64,000 nucleotides of DNA from Phormidesmis priestleyi Ana (GTDB lineage: Bacteria; Cyanobacteriota; Cyanobacteriia; Phormidesmidales; Phormidesmidaceae): assembly GCA_001314865.1 (NCBI GenBank), contig LJZR01000014.1, forward strand, positions 62,001 through 126,000, written 5' to 3'. Position numbers and translations under genes: made by a program. This document shows positions 22,916 to 30,072 of the stretch, piece by piece (positions within the stretch are counted from its first letter, which is position 1; each line of letters begins with the position of its first letter). The notes under the pieces were generated by a model. That model was not told where the DNA came from. It did no database searches and saw only the letters and a program-made list of their open reading frames with translations.

Positions 22916-24451
22916 CTACTGGGTGCTAATAGTCAGCACTTGAGGCGGCGTTGCATCGGGCGGATAGAGAAACTGAACGTTAACGTTTCGCTGTTCGCCC
23001 GGTTGAAGCGTCATTTCTATCAGTGGCTGGCCTTGTTCGCCCCTATTTTGTTCTAGGTAGGTATAGGCGGCTCTGGATCTGCCGTCATCTTCTTTGTATA
23101 TGAACAGAACCGTGCCTCGGAAAAAGACGCGGGGTTCGGGAGATCGGTAGAACTGAAGGGCGTTGTTAAGGCTCTCATTTTGGAGGGGTGTTTGTACCGT
23201 GAGTGAAACGGTTTTGGGGCTATCGGTAGGGTTGGTCAGGGGCAAATCGAGATTGTATTCGATGCCATAATTGCCGTTTGCGACATAAGCTGTATCGCTA
23301 TACCGCTGTGTGATTGGGGCGCTTTGAATTTGATTTGTGCCGAATGTGTTGCGCTCTAATGTGCTCAAGGCGTAGGAGATATGTTCTCCGGGGGCTGGAA
23401 TGGCGAGCTGATCGCTTTTGCCATCTGTAAGTTTGGCTTTCCATTGGGAGCCTATAGCGATGCCTGAAACACGGCCATAGCGAAAGGGGTTTTCACGGCT
23501 ACCGGGTCTGCTAGGGCTGAGGTCGCGAGGGGTTGATAACTTTCCTTGAAACAAAAGCTGCTTCCAGTCTTCAAGGCTAGGGACAACCTCTTGACCGTTG
23601 GTCTGAGGCGCGTGCATGCCCAAACTAGCGACATATACCGGGCCGCTGCTGTTGAGGCGAATCAGGGTCGAGCGAGCGTTGAGCCGGGGACCTTCTCCGG
23701 AGGGGGCATTGCTAGGGGGCGGGCTAATGGGACTGCCAGGGGCAAGGGTGCCGTCGGTCGCGACATTAAGACGGCGTAAGGGAATAGGGGCGTTGAGCAG
23801 GAGGTGGCTTTGGCCGGGCGCGATGGTGACTTGGTCGGGGAATGTGGCTTGACGGCGATCGCGCAGCACATCATTCATTACCCGGCTACCGGGGCCTGAA
23901 AAACTGTTGCTGTATAGGTTAGAAGTTCCTGAAGCGATTTCGTTCCAGGGCGACTCTTGACTAATGTAGGATGCGCCATCGCGGATGGTAAGAGTAACGG
24001 GGCGATTAGATGGGTTATGCACCATAATCGCTTCGTATACGGTGCGCGTGTCGGTATCGCTTTGGCCGCGGGCAACATGGTGCGAAAAAATGTCAAAACG
24101 TCCGTTAAAGGCATAGTTGAGGTGGGCGCTAGGGTCGCTTTTGCCTCGGTTGGGAAAGGTGGATAGCAAAATGCCGTCAGATTCGATGATTTCGGGGCTG
24201 TTGCTGTTGAAAACAGGCACATTGTCTAAGCCGCCAGGGAGCGATCGCACCGTCTGCGGAATGGTAATGATATTGCCTTCTGCCTGGGCTACCTGGGCTA
24301 CCTGGGCCAATATTGGCGGATGTTCTGCCTTAAGGAAGGCTCCCTGCGTGAGTTCGGTGTTGTGTATAGCCTTAGCAGCTACTGGGACCTCGGCCAACCC
24401 GATATTGCTCAGCAGGTTGGTGACAGAGATAAAAGAGAGGAGGGAGAACAT
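22916..24451 (-). CDS. Secreted DUF3370 family protein
   Basis: The 511-residue protein has a signal-peptide-like N-terminus (MFSLLSFISVTNLLSNIGLAEV, hydrophobic to about residue 20) and the DUF3370 body: IIESDGILLSTFPNRGKSDPSAHLNYAFNGRFDIFSHHVA, YEAIMVHNPSNRPVTLTI, and a beta-rich C-terminus ending in PGEQRNVNVQFLYPPDATPPQVLTI. The family is cyanobacterial and thought to be exported; the function is not known. I chose ATG 24451 because the only longer start is a TTG (24490) that would place 13 residues before the signal peptide. Codons at 24283-24309 are a 9-base triplicate (VAQ repeats). Confidence 0.8.
   Translation of the reverse strand: MFSLLSFISVTNLLSNIGLAEVPVAAKAIHNTELTQGAFLKAEHPPILAQVAQVAQAEGNIITIPQTVRSLPGGLDNVPVFNSNSPEIIESDGILLSTFPNRGKSDPSAHLNYAFNGRFDIFSHHVARGQSDTDTRTVYEAIMVHNPSNRPVTLTIRDGASYISQESPWNEIASGTSNLYSNSFSGPGSRVMNDVLRDRRQATFPDQVTIAPGQSHLLLNAPIPLRRLNVATDGTLAPGSPISPPPSNAPSGEGPRLNARSTLIRLNSSGPVYVASLGMHAPQTNGQEVVPSLEDWKQLLFQGKLSTPRDLSPSRPGSRENPFRYGRVSGIAIGSQWKAKLTDGKSDQLAIPAPGEHISYALSTLERNTFGTNQIQSAPITQRYSDTAYVANGNYGIEYNLDLPLTNPTDSPKTVSLTVQTPLQNESLNNALQFYRSPEPRVFFRGTVLFIYKEDDGRSRAAYTYLEQNRGEQGQPLIEMTLQPGEQRNVNVQFLYPPDATPPQVLTISTQ
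24283..24309 (-). repeat. Three 9-base tandem repeats in the DUF3370 gene
   Basis: CCTGGGCTA is present three times (last copy CCTGGGCCA), giving AQV/AQA tripeptide repeats. Confidence 0.8.
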
Positions 24452-24882
24452 CAATTCGATACCTAAATTTAGGTAGCTCAACTTCAACAAGGTGTTTGAT
24501 TCAATCTGCGTATCGTTGAGCGATCGCAGTCATAAAACGAACGGCTAAGAACATATCACCGTAAGTAGACGACTCGCAATCAAGAGTGGACAGTTACCAT
24601 TTGCCATTCTCATTTGCCATTTGCCGGTATTTCAAAAACCCCCTCTGAAAAAACACGGAATGCTGCTTTGTCAGGAAAATAAGGGCCCTAAAGATCGCTA
24701 TTTTTACGGAGAACCTTTTATGCGGAGGGTCTATTTTTCAACAGAAGAAATAAACACTCATACCCAGTTCAAACCATCGGCTTGTGTTTGTTTCATTGCG
24801 CTGTAGTCCTTGGGTATGTTCGTTATACAGTACGAGATTTTGTGTCGCTACTCTCTTGCTGGCCTCAAGGTATAAAAACATC
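24452..24882. other. Divergent intergenic region between DUF3370 and the CHAT exoprotein
   Basis: No gene is seen. It includes a repeated ATTTGCCATT word near 24597-24625. Promoters for both genes, which both encode exported proteins, must lie here. Confidence 0.45.
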
Positions 24883-27800
24883 ATGAAACAGAAGTATCTA
24901 CGTTGTTTATGGGTTACACCCTGTGTTTGGTCAGTGGGCCTTTTTGCGTCGTCCTCTTCAGTGCAAGCGGGGGTTGTCGCAACTCCAGGGGATGCCGGGA
25001 CAACGGTGATCTTTTCGGGTAACCGCTTTGATATTGAAGGGGGGACACAGGCTGGCGGCAACTTATTTCATAAGTTTGATGCGTTCAACGTGGATACCGG
25101 ACAAGCCGCTAACTTTGTTGGCGATGCAAGTGTTCTTAATATTGTTGGTCAGATATCAGGCCGCAATTCTTCCTACATTGATGGGCAGGTGCAGGTGCAG
25201 GGCAGCGATGCCAATTTGTATCTGATCAATCCAGCGGGCGTACTGTTTGGCCCTCATGCTCAGCTGTCTCTTCAGGGATCTTTTACGGCGATCGCGGCAG
25301 ACCAAGTTGGGTTTAATGACGATTGGCTAGATGTTTATCAGACCAATCCTGACTATTCGAGCCTCACCGCTGATCCTTCCGCTTTTCGCTTTACCGGTAG
25401 TGAGGCCAGTGCGGTTGTTAACCGAGGTAATTTGGCGGTCGCGGCAGGCGAGTCGATTTCGCTCATTGGCGGAACTGTTTTGAGCACTGGGACGCTAGAA
25501 GCTGCCGGGGGTGAAATTGGCTTGGTCGCCGTCGAGGGTGAGAGCACGGTGCGTTTTACCCAGCCGGGTAGCCTGCTGAGCTTAGAGATGACTCAGGGCG
25601 ATATTCCGATAAATGTCGGCGGTGGCTTTGCAGTCACTGATTTGCCCGCTTTATTAACAGGAGACCCTAGGCGGCAGGCGAACGACCTGCAAATAATTGC
25701 TGATACTGAGGGCGCTCTGGTGTCTCTTGATGGCAATGGGGTAGAGGCTGGGGAGGTAGCGATTTCAGGTGCGCTCTCTACCCGATCTACCACCGCTAAC
25801 GGCGGTACGATTAGCCTGCTGGGCCGCTCTGTTAATGTGCTCAGCGCGGTGGTCGATGCTTCTGGTGTTAACGGTGGTACGATTCGCATCGGTGGCGGAA
25901 TGGGTGACTCATCGGACTTGGGAGACAGCGCAGCCACGCTTCCCGAGTCTGACGGGGTGCTGTTTGAGACGCTTTCGTTTAGCAGCAATGCGCCAGTCAT
26001 CCGAGCAGATGGATTGGCAGGCGCCGGGGGTGATGTTTTTGTGGGAGGTCAGCTGGCTGCAATCCTAAATGGCGTGATTTCAGCGCGGGGCACAGCACAG
26101 GGTGGATTGGTTGAAACTTCATCAGATAATTTGAGTTTATCGGAGACTTTGACGGTACTGACAGAGGGGTCAACCGACAACGGCCGCTGGCTGATTAGTT
26201 CAGATGCTATGGAGATTGTGGCGGCGGGGTCAACCTATGGCACGATCGCGCACGGCCTGATTGAGCGGACATTAGATGCCGGTACGGATGTCGAGATTTT
26301 CACTAATCCAGCGGCTGACGCGCTTAACGATATTACGCTCTCTAGCAGTATTCAACAAACCGGTAGCAGCACAGCTGGCCTAACGCTGACAGGCCAACAG
26401 TTTGCGGTGCAAAATGGTTCGACTATTGATCTGGCCAGCACGGGTGGGCTGACGTTCAATATTGACGTAGGTAGTACAGATGTCACAAAAGCGCAAAGTA
26501 GCCGTTCGGTTGAAGATGCGATCGCTGCAATTGGCAACATCACTGGTGAGAGCACCCTTAACTTAGGTGCGGGAACCTATGACTTTTCAGCCCCTGTGTC
26601 GCTAGATACCCAAGTCAATATCTACGGTTCTACGATAGGTTCTACGCTTTTAAGAAGTTTCGGCGGCGACCACCGCATTTTGTCTGTCACTGCCGACGGA
26701 GATGTGCAGCTACGCGATCTTATTTTAGGGGGGGGCAGTGGATTTGGTGGCGGTATTCGCAATTTCGGGGATCTCAGTGTAGAAAGCAGTCGGTTCATCG
26801 GCAACATAGATGAATTAGGCGGAGCTATTTTTAGTGGAGACAACAGCAATCTAACGGTACTGAATAGTGATTTTGTCAGCAATGGCAGTCAGGACATTGC
26901 GATTGGCGGATCGGGTGGGGCGATCGCGCTGTTAGGTGCAACCGCCACAATCGAAGGCAGCACATTTTTCAACAACATAGCCGCTGACGACGGCGGCGCG
27001 CTTTTCATCAGAAATTCCAATGCGAGGATTTCCAACACCAACTTTACCAACAACACTTCTGTTGACGACGGTGCAGGTGCCGCTGTGAATGGATCAGGCC
27101 AAACCCATTTTGTAGGGGTTACTTTTGCGGGCAATAACGCTAACGACGGTGGCGCCATCGCAATGTGGGACGGGGGACAGGCGACTTTTGATGACGTTAC
27201 GTTTACGGGCAATACGGCTATTCAAGCCGGTGGGGCCGTCAATCTCTTCAGTAGCACGGCTACTTTTATCAATTCTCGTTTTCAGGACAATACAGCACTC
27301 AGTGGTGGCGGTATCTCCGCAGTGAATTCTACAGCGGTCATTCAGGAGAGTGAGTTTGAGCGAAATATAGCTAGCAATAGCGGTGGTGCGCTCCGGGCGA
27401 TCAATACAGACTTTTCCCTGACAGACTCTACTTTTGTTGACAATTCTGCTAGGCAGGGTGGCGGCGTGGCTGCCGTTACGCCAGTTAACGCCATGATTAC
27501 CAATACGCTCTTTAAGAACAACCGCGCCCAGCAAGAGGGCGGCGCTATTTATGCGCTCTCTGGTACAACGACTATCACGGATACAACGCTTACCGGTAAT
27601 GAATCTGATGGCAGCGGCGGCGGACTTGCATTGACAGGGGGTTTAACTGAGATAAAAAATTCTCGAATTGAAGGGAATATTGCTGGCGGCGGCGGCGGCG
27701 GCCTTTACGTGATCAACGGAACCGCTCGCCTAGAGGCCAGTGAGGTTGACGGTAATCAGGCTCAGGATGGGGCCGGTTTAGCGGTGAGTACAGGTGGTGC

Positions 27801-30072
27801 TGGGATAGCAGTAGATACGACCTTTAGTAACAACGAGGCTGCTGCTCAAGGCGGGGGCATTCAAATACAGTCTGGGGCGAGCCTGGATGCTACGCGCATC
27901 ACCATGCAAGGGAACCGAGCACTTTTGGGCGGTGGGCTAGCCAACAGAGGGACGACTACGCTGACGAACACCACGCTGAGTGGTAACAGTGCTGCTGATC
28001 AAGGCGGTGCTATTTACTCCTTTGACTCGAATACGCAGCTTACCCTGAGCAGCAGCACCATTAGTAACAACAGCGCAGGTGTTTCAGGCGGGGGGATTGT
28101 TGAGCGTAATACTCAATCATTAGACGTGCAAAATACCCTCGTGGCTGCTAATACGAGCGTTTCTGCTGCTGATGTCAGTGGCACTTTTGAAGATCAGGGC
28201 AACAACCTGATTGGTTCAGCAGAGGGTTCGGTTGGATTTACTCGTAGTCTGTTGGTGGGGAGTGCAGCCACGCCGCTCGATCCTGAACTCGCGCCCTTAG
28301 CGGATAATGGCGGGCTTACTAGAACTCATCTACTCCAGTCTGATAGTCCGGCGATCAACGCTGCTAGTCCCGATCAGACATTAGGGATGGATCAGCGAGG
28401 ATTGGCACGGGTGGTGGGTGCTGCAATGGATATTGGCGCGGTGGAGGTGACGGCGGGTGAGGTATCTGCTGATATTTTGGCTGCGATCGCGCCTAATCAA
28501 CCGCCCACCGCTACTCCTGGCTCGTCCGTTCCCAACAGCAATCCTTCCGAGACTTCCACCCAGCCCATTATTGAAACTTCCACCCAGCCCATTATTGAAA
28601 CTTCCAATCAACCTGTTATTGAAACTTCAGAACACTCTCCGGTGACTGTCAGCTCTGCCCTCTCTGATCTTTTATTACAGCAAATATCGGCTGCTGAAGC
28701 TGCTGAAACACTTGATATAGAGCAGAATATAGAGCAGAGCTTTCAGCCCCAAACAACGTTTGAAGAGAGCGCCGATAACACTGCTATTCGTCAGCTAGAA
28801 CAAACCTTTAGCCAAAGCTTTGCAGACTACTGGGATCTTTCTCTTGGGCCAGATTTAACCTTTGATGAGGTGCAGGCTATTTTGCGTCGCGCTCAATCAG
28901 AGTACACCGTCAATTCAGCTGTCATTTACGCCATGTTTGCCTCAAGTGATAGCGACGCCTCTGATAGCGAAGATTCCGCCAGTTCACAGTCCGACATTTT
29001 ACAGTCCGACATTTTACAGATAGAGGCCCAACCCTCTCCAAGCGATTTGTTAAATCTGTCGCTAGTGATGCCAGATGGTGAGCTAGTAAGCTACGAGCTA
29101 CCGGTGACTCGGCAAGAAGTCACCCAGCAAATCAGCCTGTTTCGCACCATGGTCTCCGATCCTGAAGATTCGTTTGGCTATCGCCCGTTAGCGCAGCAGC
29201 TATACCAGTGGCTATTAGAGCCCTTAGAAGACGTGTTAGCTGCTCAAAATATCCAAAACCTGATGTATGCCTTAGATGCTGGCCTGCGAACAGCCCCGGT
29301 GGCTGCGATGAGTGACTCTTCTGGTGGTTTCGCATTAGAGCGATACGGCATTTCTGTGGTGCCCAGCATTGGGTTAATGCAGGCAGATTTTCCCATGCCA
29401 GTCAGGCGCTCTACTATTGCTATGGGCGTTTCTGAGTTTGCGCAGGAGAGCCCACTGCCCGCGGTGCCGATTGAGCTGGGCATGATTAAATCCTTTGTGC
29501 CTGCTTCTGAAACAGTGCTCAACGAATTTACTACGCTAGATGCGTTGCAGCAGGTTCAATCGTTAGACCAACCCGGTGTGCTGCATTTAGCCACGCATGC
29601 GATGTTCGATCCGTATTCTCCTGAAAGCTCCTCTATTTTGCTATGGGAAGAGCCGCTCAGCATGGCCGCGTTTAGCGATCAAGACTGGCATGGGGCTGAT
29701 TTAGAACTCTTGATCTTAAGTGCCTGTTCTACCGCGCTGAGCAGTGCTAACGCCGAGCTGGGCTTTGCCGGGCTTGCGGCTGCCTCTGGGGTAGATGCGA
29801 CTATCGGTAGCCTATGGCAGGTCTCAGATGTCGGCACATTGGCTTTAATGAGCGAATTTTACGCCCAACTCGAATCTCACGACCTGCGGTTTGAAGCGCT
29901 CAGGCAGGCGCAACTCTCACTGCTCAATGGCAAAACCCGAATTGAAAACAATCAGCTAATCACCAGTCGAGGCAGAATTCCCCTGCCTGAAGACTGGAAC
30001 CTCCCCAATAAAGCGATGTTAGATCACCCGTTTTTCTGGTCGGCCTTTACTATGGTGGGCAATCCCTGGTAA
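24883..30072 (+). CDS. Two-partner-secretion exoprotein with beta-helix and C-terminal CHAT protease domain
   Basis: The 1729-residue protein combines four parts. Residues 1-29 are a signal peptide ending SSVQA. About 30-260 is a filamentous-haemagglutinin-type TPS export domain with NLYLINPAGVLFGP at about 111-124. About 560-1080 is a right-handed beta-helix of polymorphic-outer-membrane-protein-like repeats (GGAI, GGGI and FxNN turns), followed by a choice-of-anchor-Q-like segment (about 1127-1190: PLADNGGL, DSPAINAA, DQRGLAR, DIGAVEV). After a repeat-rich linker (about 1220-1250) comes a CHAT caspase-like domain (about 1400-1729) with His1572 in LHLATHAMF and Cys1615 in LSACSTALS. ATG 24883 fits the signal peptide better than upstream GTG 24784. 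No TpsB-type outer-membrane partner is nearby. Confidence 0.88.
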   Translation: MKQKYLRCLWVTPCVWSVGLFASSSSVQAGVVATPGDAGTTVIFSGNRFDIEGGTQAGGNLFHKFDAFNVDTGQAANFVGDASVLNIVGQISGRNSSYIDGQVQVQGSDANLYLINPAGVLFGPHAQLSLQGSFTAIAADQVGFNDDWLDVYQTNPDYSSLTADPSAFRFTGSEASAVVNRGNLAVAAGESISLIGGTVLSTGTLEAAGGEIGLVAVEGESTVRFTQPGSLLSLEMTQGDIPINVGGGFAVTDLPALLTGDPRRQANDLQIIADTEGALVSLDGNGVEAGEVAISGALSTRSTTANGGTISLLGRSVNVLSAVVDASGVNGGTIRIGGGMGDSSDLGDSAATLPESDGVLFETLSFSSNAPVIRADGLAGAGGDVFVGGQLAAILNGVISARGTAQGGLVETSSDNLSLSETLTVLTEGSTDNGRWLISSDAMEIVAAGSTYGTIAHGLIERTLDAGTDVEIFTNPAADALNDITLSSSIQQTGSSTAGLTLTGQQFAVQNGSTIDLASTGGLTFNIDVGSTDVTKAQSSRSVEDAIAAIGNITGESTLNLGAGTYDFSAPVSLDTQVNIYGSTIGSTLLRSFGGDHRILSVTADGDVQLRDLILGGGSGFGGGIRNFGDLSVESSRFIGNIDELGGAIFSGDNSNLTVLNSDFVSNGSQDIAIGGSGGAIALLGATATIEGSTFFNNIAADDGGALFIRNSNARISNTNFTNNTSVDDGAGAAVNGSGQTHFVGVTFAGNNANDGGAIAMWDGGQATFDDVTFTGNTAIQAGGAVNLFSSTATFINSRFQDNTALSGGGISAVNSTAVIQESEFERNIASNSGGALRAINTDFSLTDSTFVDNSARQGGGVAAVTPVNAMITNTLFKNNRAQQEGGAIYALSGTTTITDTTLTGNESDGSGGGLALTGGLTEIKNSRIEGNIAGGGGGGLYVINGTARLEASEVDGNQAQDGAGLAVSTGGAGIAVDTTFSNNEAAAQGGGIQIQSGASLDATRITMQGNRALLGGGLANRGTTTLTNTTLSGNSAADQGGAIYSFDSNTQLTLSSSTISNNSAGVSGGGIVERNTQSLDVQNTLVAANTSVSAADVSGTFEDQGNNLIGSAEGSVGFTRSLLVGSAATPLDPELAPLADNGGLTRTHLLQSDSPAINAASPDQTLGMDQRGLARVVGAAMDIGAVEVTAGEVSADILAAIAPNQPPTATPGSSVPNSNPSETSTQPIIETSTQPIIETSNQPVIETSEHSPVTVSSALSDLLLQQISAAEAAETLDIEQNIEQSFQPQTTFEESADNTAIRQLEQTFSQSFADYWDLSLGPDLTFDEVQAILRRAQSEYTVNSAVIYAMFASSDSDASDSEDSASSQSDILQSDILQIEAQPSPSDLLNLSLVMPDGELVSYELPVTRQEVTQQISLFRTMVSDPEDSFGYRPLAQQLYQWLLEPLEDVLAAQNIQNLMYALDAGLRTAPVAAMSDSSGGFALERYGISVVPSIGLMQADFPMPVRRSTIAMGVSEFAQESPLPAVPIELGMIKSFVPASETVLNEFTTLDALQQVQSLDQPGVLHLATHAMFDPYSPESSSILLWEEPLSMAAFSDQDWHGADLELLILSACSTALSSANAELGFAGLAAASGVDATIGSLWQVSDVGTLALMSEFYAQLESHDLRFEALRQAQLSLLNGKTRIENNQLITSRGRIPLPEDWNLPNKAMLDHPFFWSAFTMVGNPW
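28552..28629 (+). repeat. Three 24-base tandem repeats in the linker of the CHAT exoprotein
   Basis: Units at 28552-28575 and 28576-28599 are identical; 28600-28623 is diverged. Each codes the octapeptide TSTQPIIE or TSNQPVIE. The linker separates the beta-helix from the CHAT half. Confidence 0.9.

Follow-up and report, generated by a model that had tools for sequence, protein, structure and literature searches.

The window analysed here, a 64-kb stretch of contig LJZR01000014.1 of the cyanobacterium Phormidesmis priestleyi Ana, encodes a protein that begins like a TpsA exoprotein, with a signal peptide and a two-partner secretion (TPS) domain, and ends in a CHAT domain predicted to be a caspase-like peptidase. 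Many cyanobacteria encode the same fusion, or a TPS protein side by side with an exported CHAT protein containing tetratricopeptide repeats (TPR-CHAT), frequently together with a DUF928 protein and a CHASE2 receptor. We give an even chance to the view that the window protein is the one-chain version of a module made up of a TPS fibre, an exported CHAT, DUF928 and a CHASE2 receptor with an interchangeable cytosolic output. TpsA exoproteins, among them filamentous haemagglutinin (FHA), HMW1A and CdiA, are usually, though not of strict necessity, encoded next to their TpsB partner. Most work on caspase-like CHAT proteases concerns cytosolic components of immunity; in many cyanobacteria, two CHAT lineages now appear to be exported and linked with adhesin-like fibres, and a set of extracytoplasmic proteins is combined with a wide variety of cytosolic outputs.

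The fused protein and its predicted peptidase

The fusion gene (24883-30072; this and all features of the protein given below lie on the forward strand) is one intact open reading frame (ORF) of 1729 amino acids. An in-frame GTG at 24784 would add 33 residues to the N-terminus, and the ATG at 24883 appears to be the start that suits the predicted signal peptide. By eye, the latter comprises residues 1 to about 29 (24883..24969), with cleavage after VQA. It is followed by the TPS secretion domain at residues 42-230 (25006..25572; Pfam PF05860, 109.5 bits; TIGR01901, 64.6 bits), within which an NPAG motif occupies residues 116-119 (25228-25239) and the NCBIfam model adhes_NPXG matches at 62-139. 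Residues 560-1132 (26560..28278, approximate limits) are read as a beta-helix from GGAI/GGGI and FxxN repeats of the PMP type; Pfam reports five stretches of Chlam_PMP and NCBIfam four of POMP_repeat, and 16 of the 18 GG[AGL][ILVF] motifs in the protein fall within residues 622-1069. A choice-of-anchor Q segment (residues 1133-1189, 28279..28449; NCBIfam NF041518, 77.3 bits) comes next. A pre-CHAT segment at residues 1301-1434 (28783..29184) is delimited by the alignments with fused and short exported CHAT proteins (A2, A3) and by the structural model, and the CHAT domain itself covers residues 1435-1727 (29185..30063; Pfam PF12770, 200.1 bits, E 7e-59, against a cut-off of 24).

With a TPS domain containing an NPxG-type motif behind a signal peptide assigned by eye, and with a long repeat region read as a beta-helix, the protein is built like a TpsA exoprotein. 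It is unlike the known members in its C-terminal caspase-like peptidase and in having no adjoining TpsB gene, its closest fused relatives standing instead beside DUF928 and CHASE2 genes. A classical autotransporter or chlamydial Pmp protein was considered on account of the PMP repeats and rejected: Pfam gave no autotransporter beta-barrel, and CHAT forms the C-terminus. Two genes misread as one, or a sequencing artefact, can be ruled out as well, since single ORFs with this layout occur at 36 of 40 long-frame loci in other genomes.

Residues 1301-1729 (429 residues) were modelled with AlphaFold2 from a 67-row alignment (A3) consisting of the window sequence and 66 homologues from named records. 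The model has a mean predicted local distance difference test score (pLDDT) of 90.2 and a predicted template modelling score (pTM) of 0.91. Foldseek placed Craspase TPR-CHAT/Csx29 chains on top (best E 3.2e-14) and separases next. VIA-align scored the match to Craspase TPR-CHAT at Z 28.5, with 320 residues aligned at 3.0 A and 12% identity; separase reached 25.8, gingipain R 19.2 and the anti-sigma factor DdvA (PDB 8rot/8rw5) 19.1. The predicted structure is thus of the caspase/separase/Craspase/gingipain fold. At the level of sequence, phmmer found nothing at E ≤ 1 for the CHAT region among PDB sequences; a profile search returned three matches (best E 0.0045) and aligned the histidine and cysteine of the window protein with those of Craspase TPR-CHAT 7zoq. 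The domain and fold matches of the window protein are far beyond chance.

To judge by its sequence, the CHAT domain carries an intact catalytic dyad, His1572 (codon 29596..29598) and Cys1615 (codon 29725..29727), so that peptidase activity is predicted. Both residues are invariant in all 67 rows of A3, and each is conserved in 209 of 210 CHAT domains. For Csx29, a passage of PMC10028731 states that the H615A/C658A exchange abolished cleavage of Csx30. The whole window chain contains three cysteines, and as Cys8 and Cys14 lie in the signal peptide, the mature protein should retain a single one, the predicted nucleophile Cys1615. Counted from the beginning of the TPS domain, cysteines are odd in number in 84 of 93 fused proteins (one in 46, three in 32), these proteins being related to each other and the counts therefore not independent; an odd number is what paired structural cysteines plus one free nucleophile would give in an oxidizing compartment.

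A first-pass annotation, made from the letters alone, had described a signal peptide, TPS domain, beta-helix repeats, choice-of-anchor Q segment and CHAT domain in one 1729-residue chain; ORF analysis, Pfam and NCBIfam agree with it, the NPAG motif and both dyad residues lie where it had put them, and the caspase-like fold that it proposed was recovered in the structure prediction.

The known CHAT and clan CD proteins resemble the window protein in part. The C-terminal region shares its fold and the aligned dyad with Craspase TPR-CHAT/Csx29, from which the window protein differs in being exported and fused to TPS and repeats. Pfam found no TPR repeats in the window protein, while the exported paralogues in this genome do have them. 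No CRISPR partner was seen, the library scans having covered the fusion protein and its DUF3370 neighbour and the ORFs at 9-24.8 kb and 31.7-48.3 kb having been read by eye. Membership in Craspase was therefore rejected, the fold being shared with no TPR in the chain, and Craspase was retained as an analogue of mechanism. Separase and the secreted gingipains, both clan CD peptidases, likewise share the fold and differ in export route and partners. DdvA is a membrane-linked CHAT protein, a transmembrane anti-sigma factor whose CHAT domain is reportedly extracytoplasmic; it differs from the window protein in being a single transmembrane protein and no exoprotein of the TPS type.

Two CHAT lineages tied to TPS proteins

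Relatives of the window CHAT were found at E ≤ 1e-30 in 115 of the 146 genomes of the class. From the best matches listed in the genome searches we drew the first long-frame match (≥1100 amino acids) in each of 40 genomes (L090-L129; in G010 the second, the first being near a contig end), 20 short-frame matches (L130-L149, two from one genome) and, for the exported TPR-CHATs, one match (the first) in each of another 40 genomes (L229-L268). A further 79 loci came from named records. Of 20 control regions chosen arbitrarily one did not exist, leaving 19, of which L284 itself has a complete set and L273 a CHAT. Domains in the fetched loci were called with profiles made from proteins of the P. priestleyi Ana genome and not with Pfam. 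Since all five POTRA_2 proteins, a probable BamA among them, went into the TpsB profile, 'TpsB-like' may take in other Omp85 proteins.

TPS and CHAT occur in one ORF at 36 of the 40 long-frame loci, the remaining four lacking a TPS call, a fraction biased upward by the selection of long frames. A fused ORF is also present at 46 of the 79 named loci, including records of Leptolyngbya, Nostoc, Microcoleus, Oscillatoria, Okeania and Symploca. A tree of 125 CHAT domains contains two groups with a Shimodaira-Hasegawa-like approximate likelihood ratio (SH-aLRT) support of 99 each, one of fused together with short proteins (76 rows) and one of exported TPR-CHATs (46 rows); the tree was calculated by a quick method, without rows of partial CHAT domains, and has a weak root and long outgroup branches. 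Fusion links the first group to TPS, and gene order links the second; this double link is our chief argument for fibre and protease working together.

The evidence from gene order is as follows. A TPS gene is present at 27 of the 40 exported TPR-CHAT loci, compared with 1.12 expected from per-genome counts; this expectation is slightly low, as the TPS counts stop at 16 per genome and are lower bounds there, and the observed count is probably too low as well, since a profile of the C-terminal tail described below gives L247 and L253 such a gene beside the CHAT. The separate TPS gene lies on the strand of the CHAT gene at 26 of the 40 loci, and TPS precedes CHAT in each of the 21 pairs separated by less than 1 kb, the same order as that of the domains in the fusions. 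DUF928 was found at 25 of the 40 loci (0.89 expected from per-genome counts) and CHASE2 likewise at 25, for which the comparison is with the 19 control regions (Fisher P 2e-5) and not with a genome-count expectation. DUF928 and CHASE2 occur together at 22 of these loci, and a TpsB-like gene is present at nine. The control regions contain TPS, DUF928 and CHASE2 once each, all in L284, and no TpsB-like gene. Around the named loci the counts are 16 of 79 for DUF928, 18 for CHASE2 and nine for TpsB-like genes. The genes nearest to the window gene in the tree (L090, L091, L092, L150 and L151) all adjoin DUF928 and CHASE2 genes; L150 is from Leptolyngbya sp. Heron Island J and has a fused gene. In Calothrix sp. 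PCC 7103 (L209), a short CHAT is likewise accompanied by both. Across the 146 genomes, 111 have both a window-like CHAT and DUF928, each of which is present in 115, and 27 have neither; as many of the latter are small, genome size confounds this co-occurrence.

Signal-like N-termini were counted by a home-made rule, not with SignalP, in 36 of 40 TPR-CHATs, 16 of 20 short CHATs and 22 of 35 and 36 of 51 fused proteins, compared with 53 of 196 control ORFs. No TPS domain was found in the separately encoded TPR-CHATs. By this rule, an exported CHAT domain, which the first-pass annotation had regarded as exceptional, appears to be common among the cyanobacterial relatives.

As judged by Pfam, the sensor of the CHASE2 proteins is constant and the cytosolic output is exchanged. 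The 64 proteins scanned (67 longer than 300 amino acids minus three running off an end, two shorter pieces being left out; nine are from this genome and one from control region L284) contain HATPase_c in 19 cases, GGDEF in 15 (with EAL in seven), CHAT in 13, Pkinase, AAA_35 and Guanylate_cyc in three each and TIR_2 in two, and these classes may overlap. CHAT thus appears in two places, as an exported domain and at the N-terminal side of CHASE2 proteins, where we take it to be cytosolic. CHASE2 receptors with TIR domains are encoded beside TPS-CHAT genes at L211:2342-4255 and L221:11346-14468, the latter with three TIR stretches. For DUF928, the model shows an Ig-like beta-sandwich with helices (pLDDT 72.3); its best Z of 8.4 is near the level common without kinship, and no function was derived from the fold.

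The unfused TPS proteins have a C-terminal element of their own. The motif G[RK]GG[LIVMF][PA] was found 75-130 residues from the C-terminus in 33 of 48 separate TPS proteins, in none of the 93 fused proteins and in eight of 2083 other ORFs, three of which match the tail profile and are probably TPS genes that have been cut. The motif is missing from 15 separate TPS proteins, of which several are open-ended or resemble halves of fused genes that have broken. All but one of the 33 tails have a cysteine at most 32 residues before the motif and another among the last 25 residues. Neither Pfam nor NCBIfam has a family at the tail in the three TPS proteins scanned per library. Examples with GRGGLP and EAxGW motifs are L238:5932-8418 and L246:5151-8363. 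HMW1A is reportedly anchored by a C-terminal two-cysteine element. That the arginine of GRGG might be a cleavage site is a guess.

Among the 93 fused proteins, 14 have more than 180 residues ahead of the TPS domain (L118:5408-10315, L125:9547-14301, L197:6134-11257, L105:9569-16012, L104:4371-9239 and nine more). In the five that were scanned this extension is a family-2 glycosyltransferase domain, mostly with a signal-peptide-like stretch just before TPS. Such a chain could possibly span cytosol, periplasm and surface, with the fibre being glycosylated in cis.

How the fibre and the protease may act together

We consider it as likely as not that the fibre is exported by TpsB and that a periplasmic caspase-like protease, either part of its C-terminal end or encountered there, relays the state of the fibre to a receptor. 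The window protein would leave the cytoplasm via Sec as a TpsA-type exoprotein and pass the outer membrane through a TpsB encoded elsewhere. Threaded N-terminus first, the fibre would reach the surface while the CHAT domain stays at the periplasmic end, the site also expected of the unfused TPR-CHATs. Engagement or displacement of the fibre might then free or activate CHAT, whose target in the periplasm may be the end of the fibre itself, DUF928 or the CHASE2 sensor; on cleavage of this target, the CHASE2 protein would respond through c-di-GMP, cAMP, phosphorylation or the action of cytosolic CHAT or TIR domains. Somewhat more tentatively, we propose modular outside-in signalling in which the TPS fibre serves as antenna, the exported CHAT as periplasmic switch, DUF928 as accessory and CHASE2 as transducer, a proteolytic relay across two membranes. 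If such a relay exists, it would provide a function for DUF928, an input for CHASE2 receptors and a way of asking whether bacterial relatives of caspases take part in contact sensing. Being a single chain, the window version would make a simple construct for testing activity.

The position of the CHAT domain separates this relay from the best-surviving alternative, a surface-displayed or released protease. Here the whole chain including CHAT would cross the outer membrane and act on neighbours, matrix or its own stalk, which the N-terminal TPS domain and signal peptide permit, which suits a mature chain without cysteines besides the nucleophile, and for which the secreted gingipains, matched in fold by gingipain R (Z 19.2), are a functional analogue. 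However, the TPS-linked TPR-CHATs are signal-like and have no TPS domain, so they are expected to remain in the periplasm. The CHASE2 proteins linked to them, moreover, are receptors of the inner membrane with an extracytoplasmic sensor. For these two reasons we favour the periplasmic end and regard a surface protease as rather unlikely, at little above one chance in four. The first-pass annotation had placed the protease at the outer tip of the helix: an exported TPS protein with a CHAT domain stands, and the outer tip has become the less likely site.

Less probable still, at around one chance in five, is a role in maturation or as a plug, in which CHAT would trim or anchor the exoprotein at its C-terminus while it is being secreted, without any signalling, and DUF928 and CHASE2 would merely share surface regulons. 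CHAT does occupy the place of the two-cysteine tail, which may do likewise in unfused proteins, and the operon order of TPS then CHAT and the isolated position of the window copy fit such a role. Yet the joint presence of DUF928 and CHASE2 at more than half of the TPR-CHAT loci exceeds the needs of a secretion accessory. Improbable in our view is a self/non-self or phage-defence relay that would set off a suicide output once the fibre is engaged: cytosolic CHAT, AAA_35 and TIR_2 do occur among the CHASE2 outputs, and AAA_35, NB-ARC or NACHT genes stand beside some sets in this genome, but ordinary signalling enzymes (HATPase_c, GGDEF) are commoner.

Several observations weigh against the proposed periplasmic relay and against the window protein as part of the module. 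At the long-frame, mostly fused loci, DUF928, CHASE2 and TpsB-like genes are present in only seven, nine and five of 40 cases, respectively, and against the 19 control regions (one, one and none) this linkage is not significant (Fisher P 0.19, 0.10 and 0.13); the excess of DUF928 is clear only because of the genome-count expectation of 0.96. Short CHATs have a TPS gene nearby at one of 20 loci, DUF928 and CHASE2 at four each and a TpsB-like gene at none. The TPR-CHATs break the odd-cysteine rule, 31 of 58 having two; the second cysteine, located before the CHAT domain, is kept in 51 of 58 rows (e.g., L045:11204-14011) and is possibly a redox latch. The tail is not specific to partners of CHAT, being present in eight of nine closed-end TPS genes without a CHAT within 2 kb; we therefore regard it as a general C-terminal element, in place of which the fused proteins have CHAT. 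The 64-kb window contains no DUF928, CHASE2 or TpsB-like gene by our own profiles, and none of the CHASE2 or POTRA_2 matches of the genome falls within it, in line with the lack of an adjoining TpsB gene noted in the first pass. The window copy is an orphan of the gene set and may act alone; as part of the module, it would have to use unlinked partners. No fusion-like ORF is present in the fetched flank (up to 1.5 kb) of the orthologue of its next gene in any of six congeners; that gene, a gamma-glutamyltransferase by eye, is present in all six at 82-83% identity, and the fusion thus looks like an accessory gene here.

Earlier reports touch on parts of the set. One passage of PMC5587647 describes a CHASE2-DUF928 neighbourhood with WD40 genes in one of seven cyanobacteria and suggests a signalling role; CHAT does not occur in the main text of that paper. 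For the island Syn_GI122 of marine picocyanobacteria, a passage of PMC7522525 lists secreted CHAT proteins with uncharacterised cell-surface proteins and cAMP genes; secreted CHAT and surface proteins are in common with our set, the passage gives no mechanism, and the main text does not mention CHASE, two-partner or TPR. The main text of eLife 52696 contains none of the terms CHASE2, CHAT, DUF928, DUF1822, hemagglutinin and two-partner. No report of TPS-CHAT fusions or of a TPS/CHAT/DUF928/CHASE2 set was found in open-licence PMC texts, and the fibre-protease gene sets are apparently a widespread, undescribed family. Neither TPS proteins nor CHAT proteases are new as kinds of protein; the gene set has a fair chance of being a signalling system of a new kind.

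The gene set elsewhere in the genome

The whole genome yielded 24 matches to CHAT, 10 to TPS, five to POTRA_2, 14 to DUF928 and 17 to CHASE2. The POTRA_2 protein on contig C14 (L057) is encoded ahead of genes that by eye resemble lpxC and lpxA and is probably BamA, which leaves at most four TpsB candidates, all of them outside the window. Fusions number three, the window gene and one each on contigs C128 and C51, and the latter directly follows a TpsB-like gene. A set of separate TPS, TPR-CHAT and DUF928 genes (L043) lies on the same contig as the window, about 48 kb upstream of the fusion and outside the window. Genes for AAA_35, NB-ARC/DUF1822, AAA_16 or NACHT proteins adjoin several CHAT loci of this genome, some of the matches being below the Pfam cut-off (L044:888-2264, L045:3798-5156, L046:17088-19733, L042:17169-18650 and L048:2014-3420). 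In the window itself, the divergent gene upstream of the fusion (22916-24490, reverse strand) encodes a DUF3370 protein (566.7 bits).

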